This document shows positions 167 to 9,708 of a stretch of 36,704 bases of DNA, piece after piece. Every line of letters starts with the position of its first letter. The first letter of the stretch is position 1. A program made the translations under genes and the position numbers. Location of the stretch: positions 1 to 36,704 of IMG/VR virus record IMGVR_UViG_3300032893_000178; one strand, given 5' to 3'. The stretch is from a virus. The notes under the pieces were generated by a model. That model saw nothing but the letters and a program-made list of their open reading frames with translations. It had not been told where the DNA came from and searched no databases.

Positions 167-1231
167 TTAAGTAGTTGTTACACCGGTTATAACGCCTGAG
201 CGTCGTGGGTTACGGTTAACATAGTTACCGTAGATAGCGATTTGTCGGACATCGCCCAGACCGTTGACTGGCTTAGCTTCTTTGCTAACTTGCCAAGCGG
301 TTGTGACGACTTCCTCTAATGCACCTTTCGTGACCTCTTCACCCATTTGGATGTTGTCACAGTAGGCGATTGAGCTACTAACAAATTCTAAGTGGTTCTC
401 GTTAAGAGTGTAGACTAGACCTGAAGGACATTGGTCGTCCTTAACTACTGGGATGCCCCTGAAGTATTGACTTTCGTAACCAGCCATACCAACTAACTGA
501 GCGTCAACAGCTACACCCATTGGAGTGTAAGGAGTGACACGCAAATTACCTCGTGCGGTGTCGTAGTTGCCACGACTCTTACTCTCAACTAATTTTTCAA
601 TCAGTGTCCAGCAAGTCTTAGTAGTCAGAATCAAGTTAGTTGATTCAAGCTTAGAAGCGGCGGCGCTACACAAGTCAATTTGAGCAGCTAGCGAAGCAAA
701 GGAAATCACATTGCTGGCGGCAGCTGTTACTTGACCGTTAATGTAAGTACCGTAAGTTGTACGGCTCAATCCACCATAGCTTGAGCTGTAAGTTGCGTTG
801 TCGGTGGACAACTGAAGGCCGTCAATAGCCACACCTTGTCCAAGACCATAGAAACGTGAACCAGCAGCAGCGATTAAACTGTTGCGGATAACATCAAACT
901 TTCGTTTGACTAGGTTAATGACCTGAGCTTTAGTCTGGTTAAGACCAAGTTCGGCGTAACCTATAATGACTGAGTCACCAAGACCTTTGGCTTCCCATTG
1001 CAGGTTAACATCCGTAGTGTTATCTGCGGTGTTAAAATTGCCCATTCCTTGAAAGTCAATAGCTGTAGTAACTTCGCTAACCTGAATCGGTTGCTTCTCG
1101 TATACACCCATTTCCCAAGGAGTCACTTTTCCGGTTGCACGTCCAACTAGGACGCTAGAACCGTGAACTGCGTCTACAACGAAGCTGGCAATACGCTGCG
1201 ATGTAGTTGTGATAAGACGACTATAGTCCAA
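167..1231 (-). CDS. Major capsid protein
   Basis: This 354-residue protein follows terminase, portal and the scaffold-like gene in the usual head-gene order. Its mixed alpha/beta composition, the central helix region around residues 95-115 and the beta-rich C-terminus (IAIYGNYVNRNPRRSG) suit a HK97-fold coat subunit, although no single diagnostic motif proves it. The start is a TTG at 1231-1229, supported by a GGAG ribosome site six bases upstream; the next in-frame ATG lies some 40 residues further in. A hairpin terminator lies immediately upstream, so capsid expression may depend on read-through or a separate promoter. Confidence 0.8.
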   Translation of the reverse strand: MDYSRLITTTSQRIASFVVDAVHGSSVLVGRATGKVTPWEMGVYEKQPIQVSEVTTAIDFQGMGNFNTADNTTDVNLQWEAKGLGDSVIIGYAELGLNQTKAQVINLVKRKFDVIRNSLIAAAGSRFYGLGQGVAIDGLQLSTDNATYSSSYGGLSRTTYGTYINGQVTAAASNVISFASLAAQIDLCSAAASKLESTNLILTTKTCWTLIEKLVESKSRGNYDTARGNLRVTPYTPMGVAVDAQLVGMAGYESQYFRGIPVVKDDQCPSGLVYTLNENHLEFVSSSIAYCDNIQMGEEVTKGALEEVVTTAWQVSKEAKPVNGLGDVRQIAIYGNYVNRNPRRSGVITGVTTT

Positions 1232-2275: not shown

Positions 2276-4405
2276 CTATTGCGGTGGTTGGCCCTGACTT
2301 TGTGGTGAGGGTTGAGGTTGCTGCGGTTGCTGAGGTTGTGGTGGAGTTGGGGCTAATTCTTGAGGACTTTGATTGGGCTGGATAATTGTTGAGGTATTGG
2401 TACCGACGTGAGCCATGCCAGCCGTCATCTCTAAGTCATGTAGGGCTGAGGGTTGTAGGCCCTGATTAATTTCCATTTGAGCCTGTACGTCAGGCGGTGC
2501 GTCCCGATAGTTAAATGTCTCTTTAGCTCGGATAGGCGGCATCTTGGTGTTGGGATTGTCAGTTTCCTGCTGGTCTTGCATCTTAGCCATTTTAAGTTTG
2601 ACTTGGCCAATAATTTGTTGGACGAAGTTCTGGACATTCTTCTGCTCGTCAGGCTGAAGCATGTGGTATTTATTGGTGAGCAGGTAAGCGTTGAGGTGTT
2701 TAATGTAGTCATCACTAATGTCATCTCGCTCAACTGGTTTCTTACCGGCAATGACGGCTTGCAAATCTTCTTCAGCTTCACGGTCTTGAATGTTCTTCTC
2801 AGCGTCGTCCATAGCTTGAAATGGTAGGACTTGTTCCTTAACAAACTGGTTGTAGGCTTCTTCGGGGTCGTCAAACAAACCTAACTCTCGGTAAGCTACC
2901 AAAGTAGAGACTTTATTCATCTTAAGCAAGTCCATAATTGCCATGCGTTTTTGAGCACGGTCAATCGGTAAGCTAGTTCCGGCTTTAATACCTATCTTTA
3001 TACCTAGATTCTGGGCAATCTTGGGTTTACTTATAACAATTGAAACGAAGTTGCCGTCATCACCCATATAGTTGTAGTAGTGTTCGTCGGTGAAGTAGCG
3101 GTACATCATCTGAGCTTCTAATTGGTAGAAGCGAGTCATACCAACTTCCAAACAATCCAGTAGGTCAGATTGTCGGCCTTGACCTTGATTTTTTAAGATG
3201 AGGTCTTGAGTAGCGGTGTTCTGATTAGTCTGGTGCCCTTGCATGACATTTGGCGCACCGTAGATGTCCTCAATTGAAGCCTTCAAATCTTGCTTATCCT
3301 CAATAATGTAGGTCGGCATGTTCTGTTGCTGCCAGACCGTGAAGGACTTGTTAACGTCTTGGGTATCAAGTAAGACTCGTTGGATTGGCGAGAAGTGAAT
3401 CTTAGAAACATCTTTTTGGGTAATCGAACCTTTAGCGAAGATTGGTACGCCAGTGCCGCCGTATTTAGCGCTCTCAGCGATAACCTGGCCACGCTTGTTG
3501 TAGTTCTGTTGTAAATACTTAGATTGCTCAGAGAATGAAGTGTGGTCGATGTGAGTCGTGCCGTCATTTAATAAGTTCCACCAAACGAAGGGCATCATTT
3601 GGAACTCAGTTAAGTTCTTACCGCCCTCGTCCCAGTTGGGGTCGTCTATCACACCGAAGCAGTGGTCTTTATAGCGCCAGCCAACAACTAATTTCTTCTC
3701 GTCATCAACGTCTATAAATAACCAATCTTCTTTAATGGTGTACTCGGTTTCACTTAAGCTGACTGGGTTATCAGCTACGCCGAATAGTTCTAAAATCTTA
3801 TCCTTTTGGTCAGGAAATTGTTTAATAAGGTCGCCTGGTGTGCGCTTAAGCTTCTGTGATAGATAATCCGGCTCCTCGTAAAGTGACGAGCGTTTGCCAA
3901 TCATCACTGAATCAGGACTCAGATGTTCAAAGATTATATTGTCTTTAGCTGCGTCATAACGCCACTTACCTATGCCGATACGCTCACCAATTAATAAGTC
4001 TTGAACAACTAATCTAATCTTGTGTTTAGCGTGCTGTTCCTCAGCGTGCATCTGTAGGACATTCTCGAAGTCTTGAGCGAATAATTTATTAATTAAATCC
4101 TTATTGGCTGGTGTTATCTCAGGAGCGGTAATTTGTTCAGTAATAAAAGGTACAATAGTCCTGACAGCTATAAATTGCCTATTATCGGCAAACACTTCTT
4201 GGTAACGGTCATCAACTAACTGCTCTTCAACATACCCAGCTAGGTATTGTTTGCGGTTATCATCTCGAATCGCCTTTAGCCCACGCTTTTTGTTCGTACT
4301 CTTATTAAAAAAGGTTTCGGACTCGTTATGGCGCTTCTTAACAATCTCCAAAAACTCACTAGGTTCGATTAAATCTGTATAAATTTGTTCCAAATCTGGG
4401 GTCAT
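2276..4405 (-). CDS. Portal protein
   Basis: This 709-residue protein lies upstream of the scaffold and capsid genes and downstream of terminase. Its size suits the large portals of short-tailed phages, which form the dodecameric channel for DNA. The C-terminus is a Pro/Gln-rich tail ending in PQPQQPQQPQPSPQSQGQPP, preceded by helical, Gln-rich sequence. The frame also allows a TTG start seven codons earlier (4426), but that TTG lies inside a terminator hairpin. The ATG at 4405 is therefore preferred, with a GAGGAG site about 13 bases upstream formed by the hairpin's 3' arm. Function is inferred from size and context. Confidence 0.75.
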   Translation of the reverse strand: MTPDLEQIYTDLIEPSEFLEIVKKRHNESETFFNKSTNKKRGLKAIRDDNRKQYLAGYVEEQLVDDRYQEVFADNRQFIAVRTIVPFITEQITAPEITPANKDLINKLFAQDFENVLQMHAEEQHAKHKIRLVVQDLLIGERIGIGKWRYDAAKDNIIFEHLSPDSVMIGKRSSLYEEPDYLSQKLKRTPGDLIKQFPDQKDKILELFGVADNPVSLSETEYTIKEDWLFIDVDDEKKLVVGWRYKDHCFGVIDDPNWDEGGKNLTEFQMMPFVWWNLLNDGTTHIDHTSFSEQSKYLQQNYNKRGQVIAESAKYGGTGVPIFAKGSITQKDVSKIHFSPIQRVLLDTQDVNKSFTVWQQQNMPTYIIEDKQDLKASIEDIYGAPNVMQGHQTNQNTATQDLILKNQGQGRQSDLLDCLEVGMTRFYQLEAQMMYRYFTDEHYYNYMGDDGNFVSIVISKPKIAQNLGIKIGIKAGTSLPIDRAQKRMAIMDLLKMNKVSTLVAYRELGLFDDPEEAYNQFVKEQVLPFQAMDDAEKNIQDREAEEDLQAVIAGKKPVERDDISDDYIKHLNAYLLTNKYHMLQPDEQKNVQNFVQQIIGQVKLKMAKMQDQQETDNPNTKMPPIRAKETFNYRDAPPDVQAQMEINQGLQPSALHDLEMTAGMAHVGTNTSTIIQPNQSPQELAPTPPQPQQPQQPQPSPQSQGQPPQ

Positions 4406-4407
4406 TT

Positions 4408-4441
4408 TATATAAAAAGCTCCTCAATTAAGCTGAAGAGCT
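4408..4441 (-). terminator. Intrinsic terminator immediately upstream of the portal start (copy 2)
   Basis: On the minus strand AGCTCTTCA pairs with TGAGGAGCT (nine pairs, one G-U) around a GCTTAAT loop, followed by TTTTTATAT. The 3' arm contains GAGGAG, the only ribosome-binding-like sequence for the portal, so folding could affect both transcription and translation. Confidence 0.75.
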
Positions 4442-5021: not shown

Positions 5022-5136
5022 TTATAACAACTCCGTCATCTTTAGCGTACTCTGGTTGAAAGCCAGGCTCCTCAAAATCGGCATCAATTACTTGAGAGTC
5101 CTCATCATCTTCAAGCAGCTCATCAAAATCACTCAT
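4900..5136 (-). CDS. Acidic hypothetical protein, 78 aa, overlapping the zinc-ribbon gene
   Basis: The ATG overlaps the stop of the 92-aa gene upstream (TATGAGTGA). The N-terminal half is very acidic (MSDFDELLEDDEDSQVIDAD); the C-terminal part is basic and runs in a different frame over the start of the zinc-ribbon gene. It may be a separate small protein. Alternatively, its acidic half may be the natural N-terminus of the zinc-ribbon protein, joined by a +1 shift near the run of four A's at the overlap. Confidence 0.45.
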   Translation of the reverse strand: MSDFDELLEDDEDSQVIDADFEEPGFQPEYAKDDGVVISEPPIVSIGRAKRRKYLRELQDTTGSDQLSSAREVLPEDL

Positions 5137-5407
5137 AACCTTTTTTTATCGGTTTCTCGATATCAGGATAGGTGACTCTAGCCAAACCATCATAGCTACT
5201 CACAGTAGAATTATTAAGTATATCTTTAAAGCCATCTAGCTTAGTGTTATGATAACCAGCCTGATTAGTTACTACAACTTCAACTTCATCATCAACCAGT
5301 GGTTCAAGGTCAGCAAAAGTCTGTACCGGCTTAACGTACTTCTCTAGCATAACTAGCTTGTCGGATAGTTCCTGTATGCCTAGATATTTTCTTAACCATT
5401 TTTTCAT
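5129..5407 (-). CDS. Hypothetical protein, 92 aa
   Basis: The ATG overlaps the groEL stop in a CCATGA junction, so it is probably translationally coupled to the chaperonin. It starts MKKWLRKYLGIQELSDKL, a short basic amphipathic helix, followed by a small beta-rich domain. No family is recognised and no membrane segment is present. Its position directly after groEL leaves open a link to chaperonin function or head assembly, but this is only context. Confidence 0.55.
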   Translation of the reverse strand: MKKWLRKYLGIQELSDKLVMLEKYVKPVQTFADLEPLVDDEVEVVVTNQAGYHNTKLDGFKDILNNSTVSSYDGLARVTYPDIEKPIKKGYE

Positions 5408-6993
5408 GGGTCGCCATTCGCCTTATCCCAAGTTGGGCCGTCTTGGTCGATTGGGTCAACAATCGCTCCAACTGTTAGTAGATAACCAGCTGCGCTGACA
5501 GCGTTCTCAATCGTCTGCGTGACAGCTCTAGTAGCATCATAAACCCCAGCTGCGGTTAAGTCGATAGGCTCGTCAGTTATGTCTCTAAGATTAAATCCAT
5601 AACCAATCGGTGAGTGCTTAACTTGTTCTAAGCGATAGTCTGGACTCTCGGCAGCGTTCTCCATTAGCTTCTTAAATGTATCTTGCAGGGCATCTTTGAA
5701 CATTTTTGAGATAGGTAACTCAGCGGCGTGGACTAACATAGTCGCACCGCCTGGCAGCACACCGTCTGTCATAGCACTTTTAGTCGCCTCGATTGCATCT
5801 TCGACTCGGTATCTTAATTCTTCCATTTCAACTGGTGTTGAACCACCGACATTAACAATCGCAATCTTACCAGTCAATTTAGAGTAGCGTTGCTCCATTG
5901 TGTCCTTGCGATGCGATGAAGTCTCGGTTTTCATAGCTTTTTGAATGGCTGAAGCCCGCTCGACTATATCCTCAGTTAAACCAGCGCCCTTAAAAATAAC
6001 TGCTCTATCTTGATTAGCTTGGACTCTCTCAGCTGAACCAAAATATTTCGGGTTGAGCTGACCATTGTCTAAAACTTCTTTCATATCTTGAGCAGCTGTA
6101 AATGGAATTGAGCCGACATAAGTAGCAATGTCGTCTATAAAGTGGACAGCATCATCGCCGTAAGCCGGTGGTGGGATAACAACTGCGTTGAGCTTACCTT
6201 GTAGTACGTTCAGTAGCAGTGTATTTAGCGCTTCGCTGTTCATCCGTACATCACCAACGATGATTAAGTTCTTATTATCTGAGTTAATCACACCGGACAG
6301 TAATGGAATAATATCAGCATTACTGGCGATTTGCTTATTGGTCACGAAGATTAACGGCCGAGCGTACTCGACTTGCTGGTTAAGGGCGAAGAAGCCCTTG
6401 TCAAAGTAATAACCGTTGACCTTCTCGACATCTAATGTCGGGTAGTTTTGTTCTCGTATCGTAATGCCACCCTCATCGCCAACCTCTTTAATCGTATCTG
6501 ATATAAGAGCACCGATAGCCGCATCGCCCGCTGAAACTGTGGCGACTTCAAGTAATTTGTTTTTGCCATTCTGACTTTCCTTCTTTAAATATTTAATAAT
6601 CTTTTGGCTGTCATCTACTAGTTGTTTTTTTATCAACATACCATTATCACCAGCAGCGATTAAACGGTGGCCTCGCTTATAGAGGTGATAAGCTAAAACA
6701 ATTGTTGCTGTCGTGCCGTCACCGGCGCTGCGATTAGTTTTCTCGCTGGCTTGCCTGAGAATAGCAGCGGCGTTATCTTCAGTCCTATCTTCCAGCACGA
6801 CTCGTTTGGCTACGGTCACGCCGTCTCTAGTAATAGTTGGGTCGCCAAACGGCATGCCTAAGATGACGTTATTACCAGCCGGCCCAAAGGTTGAGCTAAC
6901 AGTTTCGTAAATCTTCTCAGCACCAGCCAGTAAACTAGCTCTAGCGTTGTCGCTGTGAGTTATCTTTTTAATCTCTCTTTTTGGTAAGTCCAT
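5404..6993 (-). CDS. groEL: Phage-encoded GroEL-type chaperonin (Cpn60)
   Basis: Group I chaperonin, 529 residues against about 548 in E. coli; it should form ring complexes that fold proteins with ATP. Visible family motifs are TFGPAGNNV (35-43), the nucleotide-binding ITRDGVTVAKRVVLED (54-69), GDGTTA (91-96) and EGGITI (174-179). The RVEDAIEATKSA segment (396-407) carries the hydrolytic aspartate at 399, equivalent to E. coli D398, and is followed by GVLPGG. The apical domain lies at about 190-370. The C-terminus ends in a polar WDKANGDP and lacks the GGM-repeat tail. It is coupled to a 73-aa gene upstream and sits two genes after a GroES-like gene, inside the packaging/head module. Folding of capsid or tail proteins is the likely job. 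Confidence 0.95.
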   Translation of the reverse strand: MDLPKREIKKITHSDNARASLLAGAEKIYETVSSTFGPAGNNVILGMPFGDPTITRDGVTVAKRVVLEDRTEDNAAAILRQASEKTNRSAGDGTTATIVLAYHLYKRGHRLIAAGDNGMLIKKQLVDDSQKIIKYLKKESQNGKNKLLEVATVSAGDAAIGALISDTIKEVGDEGGITIREQNYPTLDVEKVNGYYFDKGFFALNQQVEYARPLIFVTNKQIASNADIIPLLSGVINSDNKNLIIVGDVRMNSEALNTLLLNVLQGKLNAVVIPPPAYGDDAVHFIDDIATYVGSIPFTAAQDMKEVLDNGQLNPKYFGSAERVQANQDRAVIFKGAGLTEDIVERASAIQKAMKTETSSHRKDTMEQRYSKLTGKIAIVNVGGSTPVEMEELRYRVEDAIEATKSAMTDGVLPGGATMLVHAAELPISKMFKDALQDTFKKLMENAAESPDYRLEQVKHSPIGYGFNLRDITDEPIDLTAAGVYDATRAVTQTIENAVSAAGYLLTVGAIVDPIDQDGPTWDKANGDP

Positions 6994-7214
6994 TAAGTTG
7001 ACACCTCTTCTTTCGGCTTTTCGACTTCAGTAATTGATAGTCGGCCGTCGTTAATTTCATATTTAGTATTAGCTGTGACTGGATAAGCTAAGCGCTCAAT
7101 AGCTACAAAACTCAAATAATTGGACAAAGTATTGTAGTATTGGTCTTGCAGAACTTTTAACATCTGTAGCTCGATTGGTTTTAGGTCGTAATGTTTAGTA
7201 TTGTCTTTAGCCAT
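6993..7214 (-). CDS. Hypothetical protein between groES-like and groEL, 73 aa
   Basis: A small mostly helical protein (LKPIELQMLKVLQDQYYNTL), with a polar C-terminus rich in Glu/Lys. The stop overlaps the groEL ATG (TTAATG), so the two genes are coupled. The ATG has an AGGAAGG site. No family is recognised. Placement inside the chaperonin cassette suggests it travels with it, but no function can be read from the sequence. Confidence 0.6.
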   Translation of the reverse strand: MAKDNTKHYDLKPIELQMLKVLQDQYYNTLSNYLSFVAIERLAYPVTANTKYEINDGRLSITEVEKPKEEVST

Positions 7215-7228
7215 TTAATGCCTTCCTT

Positions 7229-7552
7229 TTATTCATTAACACTTATTAGTCTCCACCAAGGGATTAAGGCATAAGTCTTGCCAGCTTCAACAAACGTCTG
7301 GCCACCTTCGGCGTATTGTTCCCAACGCACTTCCTTACCAATTAAATCATCAAGGTCATTGGCTATGATTTGTAAATCTTCTTCGTCGAATCTAATACTG
7401 GCACTGGCAGTCAAGTGATACTTATGGACCGAAACATCACGCAAAATACCGGTGCTTTTATCTTCGTTTTCGTCAGCTCGGCTGACGCCGTCATATTCTT
7501 TAATAACTTCAATTAGGCAGTTGTTTCCTAAAGGTCTTGTTCTGAGCGGCAT
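7229..7552 (-). CDS. GroES-like co-chaperonin candidate
   Basis: At 107 residues it matches the size of GroES (97) and of T4 gp31 (111). The N-terminus RTRPLGNNCLIEVIKE resembles the GroES start (RPL followed by a beta strand). A polar stretch at 21-34 followed by GIL (35-37) resembles the mobile loop and its hydrophobic contact. The C-terminus (LIGKEVRWEQY, then FVEAGKTYALIPWWRLISV) fits the GroES pattern of VGD/V...Y followed by a final strand that ends in D/R-I-L-A-V. Similarity is weak by eye, but the neighbouring groEL two genes downstream makes the call likely. The ATG at 7552 has a GAGGG site ten bases upstream. Confidence 0.65.
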   Translation of the reverse strand: MPLRTRPLGNNCLIEVIKEYDGVSRADENEDKSTGILRDVSVHKYHLTASASIRFDEEDLQIIANDLDDLIGKEVRWEQYAEGGQTFVEAGKTYALIPWWRLISVNE

Positions 7553-7590: not shown

Positions 7591-7845
7591 TCAAACTTCA
7601 ACTCTGTAATACTGTTTACAGTAGTGATTCTTACAACGGGCTTCAAGCACTGCCTGGTCGGCTCGGAGTAAGTCAATTGGTACGCCACCGTCATGGATAG
7701 CTACAAACTTATCACTAATACTCATAAATGGATGTCCACACTCGATACAGAATTGGTCACGATACAACTTCCGGTCGGTGGCTCTATATATAAGAGCAAT
7801 CGGTAATTGGTTGTAGGGTGTCCGAATTGAGACGCTAATTTGCAT
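7591..7845 (-). CDS. Zinc-ribbon protein downstream of terminase, 84 aa
   Basis: Two metal-binding knuckles, FCIECGHPF and CKNHYC, separated by about 30 residues, indicate a zinc ribbon. The open frame reaches back to 7932, but that extension runs over terminase. The ATG pair at 7848/7845 overlaps the terminase stop and has GAGGG at proper spacing for the second ATG, so the short form is preferred. The basic N-terminal half could bind nucleic acid. The exact role is unknown; it may assist packaging because of its coupling with the terminase nuclease gene. Confidence 0.6.
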   Translation of the reverse strand: MQISVSIRTPYNQLPIALIYRATDRKLYRDQFCIECGHPFMSISDKFVAIHDGGVPIDLLRADQAVLEARCKNHYCKQYYRVEV

Positions 7846-8512
7846 CATAACCCTCAGCGTACAAAACACCAGCTTCTTTATACATTTGTCTGGGCGCAAC
7901 TGTTTCCACAACGCCTGAATCATTGGAATCATCGACTGGCTTCTCGGTTTGGTAGAGCTGCCAGGCTCCGGCTAGCGCCATAACTAAGTCATCGTGAGCG
8001 CCTTCTTCAGCCTCAGCTCGTCCGCTTGGTTTAATCACGAAGCTAAATAACTCATTGACAGTTTGTCGGTGATAAACATGGATTAACTGACCCTCAATCG
8101 CATCCTTAAGCTCTTGTAGCATCTTCGGTCTAGTAGCTAGGTTCGTGTCCCAACCTAATTTTCCAGTATCAATCACTCTACCAGTCGGGTCTATATTTTT
8201 CATGGAGTAAATTCTATATTCTCCATAACGGTTAAGCCGAGCTAATCTGTCCATTTCAAAACCGCCGCCGTTCTGACGTTCAAAGGCCACGATTGGCTGC
8301 ACGCCGGTTTCCTGACTAATCTTTTTAAGCTTCTCGTGGATTAGCGGCGTAACGTACGAGCCGGTCACGTTAGCATGGTAGACTTCTGGCACATCCAACC
8401 ATTTGTGAGACAAGAATTGGGCTGCACAATTATCTATCCCACCAGCTGCCATATCGACAAAACAAATAATAAACTCGCCTCGCTGATATGGTCTAAATAG
8501 TTTGAAGCTCAT
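7835..8512 (-). CDS. terL: Terminase large subunit, C-terminal nuclease part
   Basis: This 225-residue frame carries the RNase H-fold headful nuclease that cuts concatemeric DNA. FICFVDMAAGGIDNCAAQF (15-33) supplies the first acidic residue (D20), VAFERQ the second (E78), and GAHDDLVMALAGAW (171-184) the terminal D174-D175. It begins at an ATG within the end of the ATPase frame, with a 20-base overlap in the +1 frame. In most phages both halves form one protein of roughly 500 residues, the sum of the two parts here. Either the halves are made separately by coupled translation, or a frameshift or sequence error divides one gene. Confidence 0.85.
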   Translation of the reverse strand: MSFKLFRPYQRGEFIICFVDMAAGGIDNCAAQFLSHKWLDVPEVYHANVTGSYVTPLIHEKLKKISQETGVQPIVAFERQNGGGFEMDRLARLNRYGEYRIYSMKNIDPTGRVIDTGKLGWDTNLATRPKMLQELKDAIEGQLIHVYHRQTVNELFSFVIKPSGRAEAEEGAHDDLVMALAGAWQLYQTEKPVDDSNDSGVVETVAPRQMYKEAGVLYAEGYDAN

Positions 8513-9308
8513 GGACTCGTTCCCACTCTTGGACTTCTTTTAACATCCTAGCCAGTGCTAGGTTTTCGATATATGTTGCACCGGATGTGATGAACGCTTC
8601 TTCAGGACTCTCTGGATATTCCTGCATAAATAACCGCTCGCCTAACTCACCACGTTTCTTGCCTAAAAACTCAGGGTCGTACATTAATGAAGCTGGTAGG
8701 AATAGCGGTTTAAAGCCGGTCTTGCCCATAACCGTTTCATCCCAATAAGTTTTACCAGCGTTAAACCCGTTAGCGGTGGATTCAATCATAACTTTGCCGT
8801 CTGGTACAACGGCTTGCAGGAGTGAGGCAACGAGTTTATCGAAGTGCGGATAAAATAGAGCTTCAGATAAGTGAGCGTTGGTAATTGTGCGTGACCGGCC
8901 AACCTCAACATTTTGAGCCGTACCTATTATATATTTAGTGTTCCTAGCTGAGTTATGTAGTTCGTACTTAGAATCGTATTTGAGCGGGACTTTAGTATTG
9001 AGCGCTCGTTCATAACTAGCAATAAACCATTTAACCCGTTCGAGTAGTCCCTGAGCATTATCGGCGTTGTCAGCCACAATCACACTAACTGAGTTTTCTC
9101 TAAGTAAAAAATCTAGGGCGAAGACTGCTAATACGAAAGCCGATACACCTTCCTGTCTAGCCTTGAGTGTAAAATCATGGCCGGTGGCGTTGTTAACTAT
9201 ATAATTCTGGGCTGTGTTTAAAATAAACGGGACTTCCACGCCGTCCTTATTAATAATTGTCAGCCGTTTTTCAATTAAGTTTTTATATGGGTCATAAATT
9301 GAGGGCAT
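8493..9308 (-). CDS. terL: Terminase large subunit, N-terminal ATPase part
   Basis: This is the motor domain that pumps DNA into the prohead. Seen are a Walker-A-like ARQEGVS (50-56), a Walker-B/acidic AHLSEA (145-150) and the coupling motif ESTANG (176-181). These are typical of terminases whose P-loop departs from GxxxxGK. The C-terminal portion, with YPESPEEAFITSG, is the usual linker to the nuclease. The frame stops after LQTI, exactly where the nuclease domain should follow in another frame. A TTG start seven codons upstream is possible, but the ATG at 9308 is preferred; it overlaps the small-terminase stop. Confidence 0.85.
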   Translation of the reverse strand: MPSIYDPYKNLIEKRLTIINKDGVEVPFILNTAQNYIVNNATGHDFTLKARQEGVSAFVLAVFALDFLLRENSVSVIVADNADNAQGLLERVKWFIASYERALNTKVPLKYDSKYELHNSARNTKYIIGTAQNVEVGRSRTITNAHLSEALFYPHFDKLVASLLQAVVPDGKVMIESTANGFNAGKTYWDETVMGKTGFKPLFLPASLMYDPEFLGKKRGELGERLFMQEYPESPEEAFITSGATYIENLALARMLKEVQEWERVHELQTI

Positions 9309-9708
9309 TTTTATCTTCTTTACTGACAAATATAAAGTTGTTGGTGGTTGCTTCGTTCTTAATACCTAATAGTCTTAAAGCCCTATCATGGCCTTTGAGC
9401 TGTAATTCAATGTCTTCTACTTCTTCAGCAAAAGCATCTTCGCCTTTACCATGAATCTCTATTTTTTTAGCCCTTAAAGCTTTTGTAACCGGCGCTACAA
9501 TGGTTTCAATATCATTACCTTGTTTTATTAATTCTGCTTGTAGCGCCTCTTGTACATTGACTTTTTTGAGTGTTCGATTTCCTATGGATGCGGCTGACTC
9601 AGGGCTAGAACCATAACCGGCATCAATAGCGGCTTGTTGTTTGGTCTTGCCTTGAGCAATACCTTTGATTAATTTGGCTTCCTTATTAGTCAGTTGTCTC
9701 TGATTCAT
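9292..9708 (-). CDS. terS: Terminase small subunit
   Basis: 138 residues. The N-terminal helix-turn-helix reads LTNKEAKLIKGIAQGKTKQQ followed by AAIDAGYG, a pattern typical of the Terminase_2 type DNA-recognition domain (residues 5-45). An oligomerisation-like helical part follows, then a C-terminus containing a leucine- and charge-rich GHDRALRLLGI segment common to these proteins. It should bind the packaging site and recruit the large subunit. It overlaps the large-subunit ATPase gene by 17 bases, the classical terS-terL order. The ATG start is at 9708. Confidence 0.85.
   Translation of the reverse strand: MNQRQLTNKEAKLIKGIAQGKTKQQAAIDAGYGSSPESAASIGNRTLKKVNVQEALQAELIKQGNDIETIVAPVTKALRAKKIEIHGKGEDAFAEEVEDIELQLKGHDRALRLLGIKNEATTNNFIFVSKEDKNALNL

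Follow-up and report, generated by a model that had tools for sequence, protein, structure and literature searches.

A precedent for a lid that serves phage-protein folding is the T4 co-chaperonin gp31, which acts chiefly on the capsid protein gp23. According to PMC6318259, gp31 replaces GroES during infection, to the advantage of phage-protein folding. The chaperonins of phages EL, OBP and AR9 are divergent GroEL-like proteins, some of them single-ring, which work without a lid (PMC9598537; PMC7185714). Phages having homologues of both GroEL and GroES are already on record (PMC7185714), and soil viral chaperonins have been observed as transcripts and peptides (PMC8390657). In the open-access literature searched, no paper was found that deals with the chaperonins of Saccharibacteria phages, viruses of tiny parasitic bacteria, or that links a chaperonin to a single capsid lineage.

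The window analysed here, that is, the whole 36.7-kb stretch of the viral record IMGVR_UViG_3300032893_000178, carries head and packaging genes on the minus strand, and among them a chaperonin cassette. The reading that we favour, with a probability of about 0.72, is that this cassette encodes a dedicated phage group I chaperonin together with its own lid, which would fold proteins of the virion, the major capsid protein being the likeliest client.

Organization of the cassette and features of the phage GroEL

The gene for a 107-aa protein is followed on the minus strand by a 73-aa gene and by GroEL, with terminase genes before the cassette and, separated from GroEL by a few small genes, the portal gene after it (Table 1). 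The initial annotation had described a groES-like/73-aa/groEL cassette inside the terminase-portal module, and both its coordinates and its gene order were right. Shine-Dalgarno-like sites precede all three cassette genes, the stop codon of the 73-aa gene and the GroEL start codon share one base (TAATG), and the start of the next gene overlaps the GroEL stop codon; thus, the cassette and the following gene read as one operon. The CxxC gene, immediate neighbour of the GroES-like gene on its upstream side, is also present in relatives L001-L004, L013, L014, L016, L017 and L024.

Table 1. Features of the head/packaging region and chaperonin cassette (positions in the window).
Feature	Position	Strand	Basis
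Terminase small subunit	9292-9708	-	Pfam Terminase_2, phrog_51
Terminase large subunit, ATPase half	8493-9329	-	phrog_2 E=1e-10; TerL tblastn matches
Terminase large subunit, nuclease half	7835-8512	-	phrog_24361 E=4e-11; T4-like TerL tblastn matches
CxxC protein, 113-aa ORF, start uncertain	7591-7932	-	neighbour upstream of GroES-like gene, kept in relatives
GroES/Cpn10-like co-chaperonin (predicted), 107 aa	7229-7552	-	AF2 fold, Foldseek, VIA, position before GroEL
Predicted mobile loop, co-chaperonin residues 19-32	7457-7498	-	pLDDT ~56, no secondary structure
73-aa protein, helix + beta-hairpin (predicted)	6993-7214	-	AF2 model; homologues in subclade
Group I chaperonin GroEL, 529 aa	5404-6993	-	Pfam Cpn60, PHROG 5725, catalytic Asp
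92-aa gene, start overlapping GroEL stop (ATGA)	5129-5407	-	same operon
Portal protein	2276-4426	-	phrog_156 E=1e-10
Major capsid protein	167-1231	-	phrog_9953 E=2e-32; lineage with cassette

Several other traits of these genomes were recorded. The terminase large subunit is encoded by two genes overlapping by 20 nt, a split also present in L001-L004, L013, L014 and L016; L024 has a single 538-aa ORF, and the halves in L017 are separated by an HNH-type ORF (1765-2220). Homing-endonuclease-like ORFs of HNH type, named by eye, are found beside or inside the cassette in L001 (9535-10005) and L028 (3505-3999). The window also encodes a 160-aa cytidylyltransferase-like protein (Pfam PF01467; 13049-13531) among small phage genes, and L003 a 262-aa protein (603-1391) composed mostly of short repeats of the type VSGEARVFGEAWV.

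As judged from its sequence, the GroEL is confirmed as a complete, divergent group I chaperonin. The Cpn60 domain is full-length (Pfam PF00118, 147 bits; cut-off 34.3), PHROG 5725 matches residues 9-512 (E=6e-108), PDB GroELs align over residues 9-518, and identity to E. coli GroEL is 31%, calculated with a hand-entered E. coli sequence whose length and key residues were checked. A full-length protein with intact GDGTTA motif and D399 and without a GGM tail had been noticed at the outset, and all of these traits were seen. Indeed, the four catalytic aspartates are kept (D57, D92, D399 and D486, corresponding to E. coli D52, D87, D398 and D495) and are invariant in 43/43 family GroELs, and the nucleotide-binding motif GDGTTA includes D92-A96. 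The protein ends in DKANGDP, and a GGM tail is absent from it as from all 43 family members (0/43), which is not disqualifying since this tail is common yet not universal in group I chaperonins. Between the window and its nearest relative (L001), GroEL dN/dS was about 0.03, with dS near saturation; this ratio was usable only for GroEL, terminase and CxxC genes, since dS had reached saturation in others, among them the GroES-like and 73-aa genes.

Besides the missing tail, two deleted segments distinguish this GroEL from that of E. coli. The helix H/I groove, to which substrate and the GroES loop bind in GroEL, is hydrophobic (I229, L232, L256, L260 and L261, equivalent to E. coli L234, L237, L259, V263 and V264), and the Y203/F204 segment is missing, a deletion found in 13 of the 43 family GroELs. 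Of the E. coli double-ring contacts A109, E434, R452 and E461, E434 is lost from the window GroEL with its inter-ring loop, R452 is replaced by Lys and E461 by Ser; the 424-437 loop is short in 38 of the 43 family GroELs. The loop deletion and both substitutions make a change in ring-ring contacts likely, so that the window GroEL may function as one ring alone or with a second one that is weakly bound.

The predicted co-chaperonin and its probable partnership with GroEL

The 107-aa protein alone gave no significant match in Pfam, PHROGs, PDB sequences or phage tblastn searches. The Pfam Cpn10 model (PF00166) misses it and matches only 3 of 16 relatives, a limit of the sequence model by which the fold itself is not tested. 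With a five-sequence profile, a similar ORF adjoining GroEL was found in six deeper relatives, and the top PDB matches of a 16-sequence profile were all Cpn10 proteins (7ekq, 1.8e-7; 1wnr, 3e-4). Without the remote members L029 and L056, the best match was still a Cpn10, with an E value (0.019 or 0.66) not significant alone. Because the strong profile match leans on these two sequences, the assignment of the 107-aa protein rests on structure and gene order; rows L029 and L056 were also part of the AlphaFold input alignment.

In its predicted structure, the 107-aa protein has the GroES/Cpn10 fold, in agreement with the GroES-like character proposed for it initially. The AlphaFold model (pLDDT 85.2, pTM 0.77) is a Cpn10 beta-barrel with Cpn10 strand order and an extra helix at residues 57-68. 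Residues 19-32, between strands 11-18 and 33-40, are modelled as unstructured (pLDDT ~56) at the position of the GroES mobile loop. In a Foldseek search against the PDB, ranks 1-33 were all Cpn10/GroES proteins (best E value 3.5e-4, probability 0.98-1.00), the next matches having probabilities of 0.1 or less, and the best matches in a viral structure library were mostly viral GroES proteins. The comparison with GroES and T4 gp31 that had been proposed was run with VIA-align, giving Z scores of 7.5-9.3 for Cpn10 proteins (9.3 for 1p3h) and 7.4-7.7 for gp31.

A GroES-like fold could be put to a different job, for instance as a capsid or head-neck component. The barrel is also the fold of the 'GroES-like' domains of medium-chain dehydrogenases, and the profile of the closer relatives alone is, as stated above, not significant against Cpn10. 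Nevertheless, these dehydrogenase domains reach Z scores of 6.3 and below, exceeded by the 7.4-9.3 of Cpn10, the disordered loop lies at the right place, the gene has a fixed position beside GroEL, and most GroEL-bearing outer relatives have a Cpn10 recognised by Pfam (see next section), all of which makes such a role very improbable and speaks for a chaperonin lid.

The cassette recurs across dozens of viral contigs, and this conservation, together with the low dN/dS of GroEL, excludes chance. The GroES-like gene precedes GroEL from the nearest relative (L001, 80-86% protein identity) to the farthest ones. An iterated GroES profile applied to 30 freshly fetched GroEL loci matched exactly 30 of 1,364 ORFs, each of the 30 being directly upstream of GroEL and on the same strand. 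Over fresh and earlier loci, drawn from the best 80 of 177 relatives in the first scan, the pair is adjacent in 37/38 relatives, and the 38th begins at the contig end. In the inner set of capsid-bearing relatives defined in the next section, the GroES-like gene and GroEL were never found apart.

The mobile-loop core of the window protein is GVSR, in which V-S-R replaces the hydrophobic I-V-L of E. coli GIVL, and the loops of other family members also depart from an I-V-L-type tripeptide. The GroES and GroEL distance matrices agree closely (r=0.948; 0/5,000 permutations as high), an agreement that could come from co-inheritance alone. A Trp in the lid loop of L026, L027, L028, L030 and L180 is accompanied in each case by a Trp at GroEL groove position 264 (E. 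coli numbering), found there in no other family member; as these five relatives are one clade, the pairing perhaps reflects one event, and as a hint at lid/groove co-evolution it is only suggestive.

These observations bear on whether the two proteins might work apart, the phage GroEL being lid-independent like those of EL, OBP and AR9 and the GroES-like protein capping host GroEL in the manner of gp31. The characterised chaperonins of those three phages need no co-chaperonin (PMC9598537; PMC7185714), and a GroEL without the Y203/F204 segment and the inter-ring loop fits this possibility. It is nevertheless rather unlikely, given that the genes are neighbours in nearly every relative, that the mobile loops are unlike those fitting host GroEL and change together with the phage GroEL, and that the lid-contact residues of helices H and I remain hydrophobic. 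A phage GroEL acting with its own lid is therefore preferred.

In the GroEL phylogeny suggested by the initial annotation, the window and 11 other sequences form a phage-only clade (support 0.985), apart from the sampled enterobacterial, enterococcal and marine phage GroELs, with the TM7-phage group placed beside it with weak support (0.76). Phages do capture host genes, and the locus could be a host groESL operon that was picked up recently and has no function; moreover, the tree was built without cellular Patescibacteria GroELs. The depth of the phage-only clade indicates that GroEL was not recently taken from a host, and with strong purifying selection and retention of the cassette in dozens of phages such a capture is scarcely conceivable, leaving an inherited phage chaperonin pair as the reading pursued here. 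Candidate prophage copies were discarded: two scans of genome contigs gave none, the sole match, L059 (a Methanoperedenaceae MAG), being an ordinary cellular groES-groEL.

The third gene of the cassette behaves differently. Homologues of the 73-aa gene precede GroEL in L001-L003, L013, L014, L016, L017 and L024, and L004 has one after the GroES-like gene on a contig ending before GroEL. A profile search of deeper relatives returned no homologue except for one weak, downstream match. The small gene linked to the pair in the initial annotation does lie beside it within the window's own subclade; its confinement to this subclade makes the 73-aa protein an accessory, and the idea that it is a core part was dropped. 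The AF2 model predicts a helix (residues 13-40) and a beta-hairpin (pLDDT 83, pTM 0.54), a fold search of the PDB with this model gave no match, and the protein is perhaps, as a guess, an adaptor or a protein that helps assembly.

Association with one capsid lineage

When the phage collection was searched by tblastn with the major capsid protein, only the TM7 phage MG269973 and MW202566 matched, and the same two were the only matches of the portal protein among 50,697 annotated phage records. Both encode a GroEL, immediately preceded by a small gene, against a background of 276/50,697 records in which GroEL was matched at all.

The reverse test started from IMG/VR records of at least 19 kb with a related capsid protein (inner set, n=42); the first scan for relatives gave the best 80 of 177, so that all counts describe the sampled part, in which related genomes are not independent observations. 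Within these best 80 of 177 relatives, Cpn60 was above the cut-off in 38/42 capsid-family records, the other four being fragments of 21-25 kb, and GroEL was present in 27/27 records of at least 30 kb, a clade that includes the Saccharibacteria/TM7 phage. Thus, the GroEL-GroES pair, regarded initially as a rarity, is instead a hallmark of this capsid lineage, near-obligate in the inner set. A sampled outer set of distant capsid relatives of at least 30 kb had GroEL in 15/22 and a Pfam-recognised Cpn10 in 14/22. Seven of them (L188, L204, L210, L213, L230, L231 and L243) have the capsid family without Cpn60, so that an absolute dependence of this capsid on a chaperonin of its own is no longer claimed. 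In the capsid tree, every member of the half to which the window and the TM7 phage belong has GroEL, and six of the seven GroEL-less outer relatives cluster in one part of the other half.

Gene order around this association is variable. In the window's group, cassette and capsid gene share a strand, the cassette being upstream; in most other relatives the two are on opposite strands, either close together or 16-20 kb apart. The capsid link thus survives rearrangement, which argues for function over mere neighbourhood. The co-occurrence could also arise because these genomes descend as wholes from a common ancestor.

Phage chaperonins are frequently classed as auxiliary genes, and the pair might serve in general stress or in host takeover, keeping the proteome of the infected cell folded. 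Transcription and translation of soil viral chaperonins during infection (PMC8390657) are compatible with such a service. However, the cassette's place among the head genes, seen in the window's clade, and its near-fixed tie to one capsid lineage point to virion proteins. Candidate Phyla Radiation (CPR) bacteria have been reported to retain GroEL/GroES (PMC12641178), and a general chaperone would be less needed in such a host; if the hosts are Saccharibacteria, as only the kinship with the TM7 phage indicates, the phage pair would have a specialised role and would not make up for a missing function. A general role is thus unlikely, and the capsid protein is probably the client of a dedicated system. 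The folding of capsid or tail proteins, as first suggested for this locus, is plausible and is strengthened by the capsid association.

Proposed function and comparison with known systems

In the working model, the phage GroEL would form an ATP-driven ring whose hydrophobic helix H/I groove binds a non-native virion protein; a heptamer of the GroES-like protein would then cap the ring via its mobile loop, and the client would fold inside the capped ring before being freed for assembly. Owing to the deletion of the ring-ring contact loop, the ring might act singly or with a weak second ring. Two points count against the model: the substrate contacts equivalent to Y203/F204 are lost, and the mobile loop lacks the hydrophobic I-V-L. 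A more specific version, doubtful but worth stating, holds that the GroEL ring is single or loosely paired, that the lid loop is unfit for host GroEL, and that capsid protein, lid and barrel evolved jointly as a single module for assembly in a ~40-kb phage lineage including a Saccharibacteria phage.

The capsid-linked conservation suggests a folding machine needed to build the virus particle. Why phages carry a whole chaperonin system although their hosts have one is now testable in this capsid lineage, since the pair occurs in every near-complete inner genome among the best 80 of 177 relatives and GroEL is absent from 7/22 outer ones, providing natural with/without comparisons. Neither Pfam nor PHROGs recognises the lid; the number of phage GroEL-GroES pairs is thus probably underestimated, and lids may have been overlooked for some phage chaperonins regarded as 'lid-free'. 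With its changed loop and groove, the system is a possible orthogonal chaperonin pair, and the relationship to a Saccharibacteria phage suggests that phages infecting such minimal cells may come with a folding apparatus of their own.

The system resembles cellular GroEL-GroES in the GroES-then-GroEL order, both folds (the lid's as predicted), the four aspartates, the hydrophobic helix H/I groove and the predicted disordered mobile loop. It differs in the low GroEL identity, the deletion of the E434 loop and the Y203/F204 segment, the lack of a GGM tail, the GVSR lid loop, the extra lid helix predicted by the model and the third gene placed in between. With T4 gp31 it shares a phage-encoded lid of GroES fold with little sequence similarity to GroES, and the gp31 loop shows that mobile-loop sequence can vary; whereas gp31 serves phage-protein folding with host GroEL, the window phage encodes a GroEL too. 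In contrast to EL, OBP and AR9, a Cpn10-fold gene is kept beside the window GroEL, as known here from the genes. Flavobacterium immuto phages (MW353176) also have adjacent co-chaperonin and chaperonin genes, but their genomes are of 160 kb, the pair follows the DNA polymerase, the GroES is annotated and the GroEL lies elsewhere in the tree. TM7 phage DolZOral124_53_65 (MG269973) has the same capsid and portal families and carries an unrecognised GroES-like gene, annotated as hypothetical, directly before GroEL; its GroEL is of 480 aa, its cassette is close to the capsid gene but on the other strand, and no 73-aa gene was seen between the two genes. Phage GroEL-GroES pairs are therefore known, and what is new here is a lineage in which the inter-ring loops are shortened, the mobile loops are altered and the link to the capsid is near-obligate.
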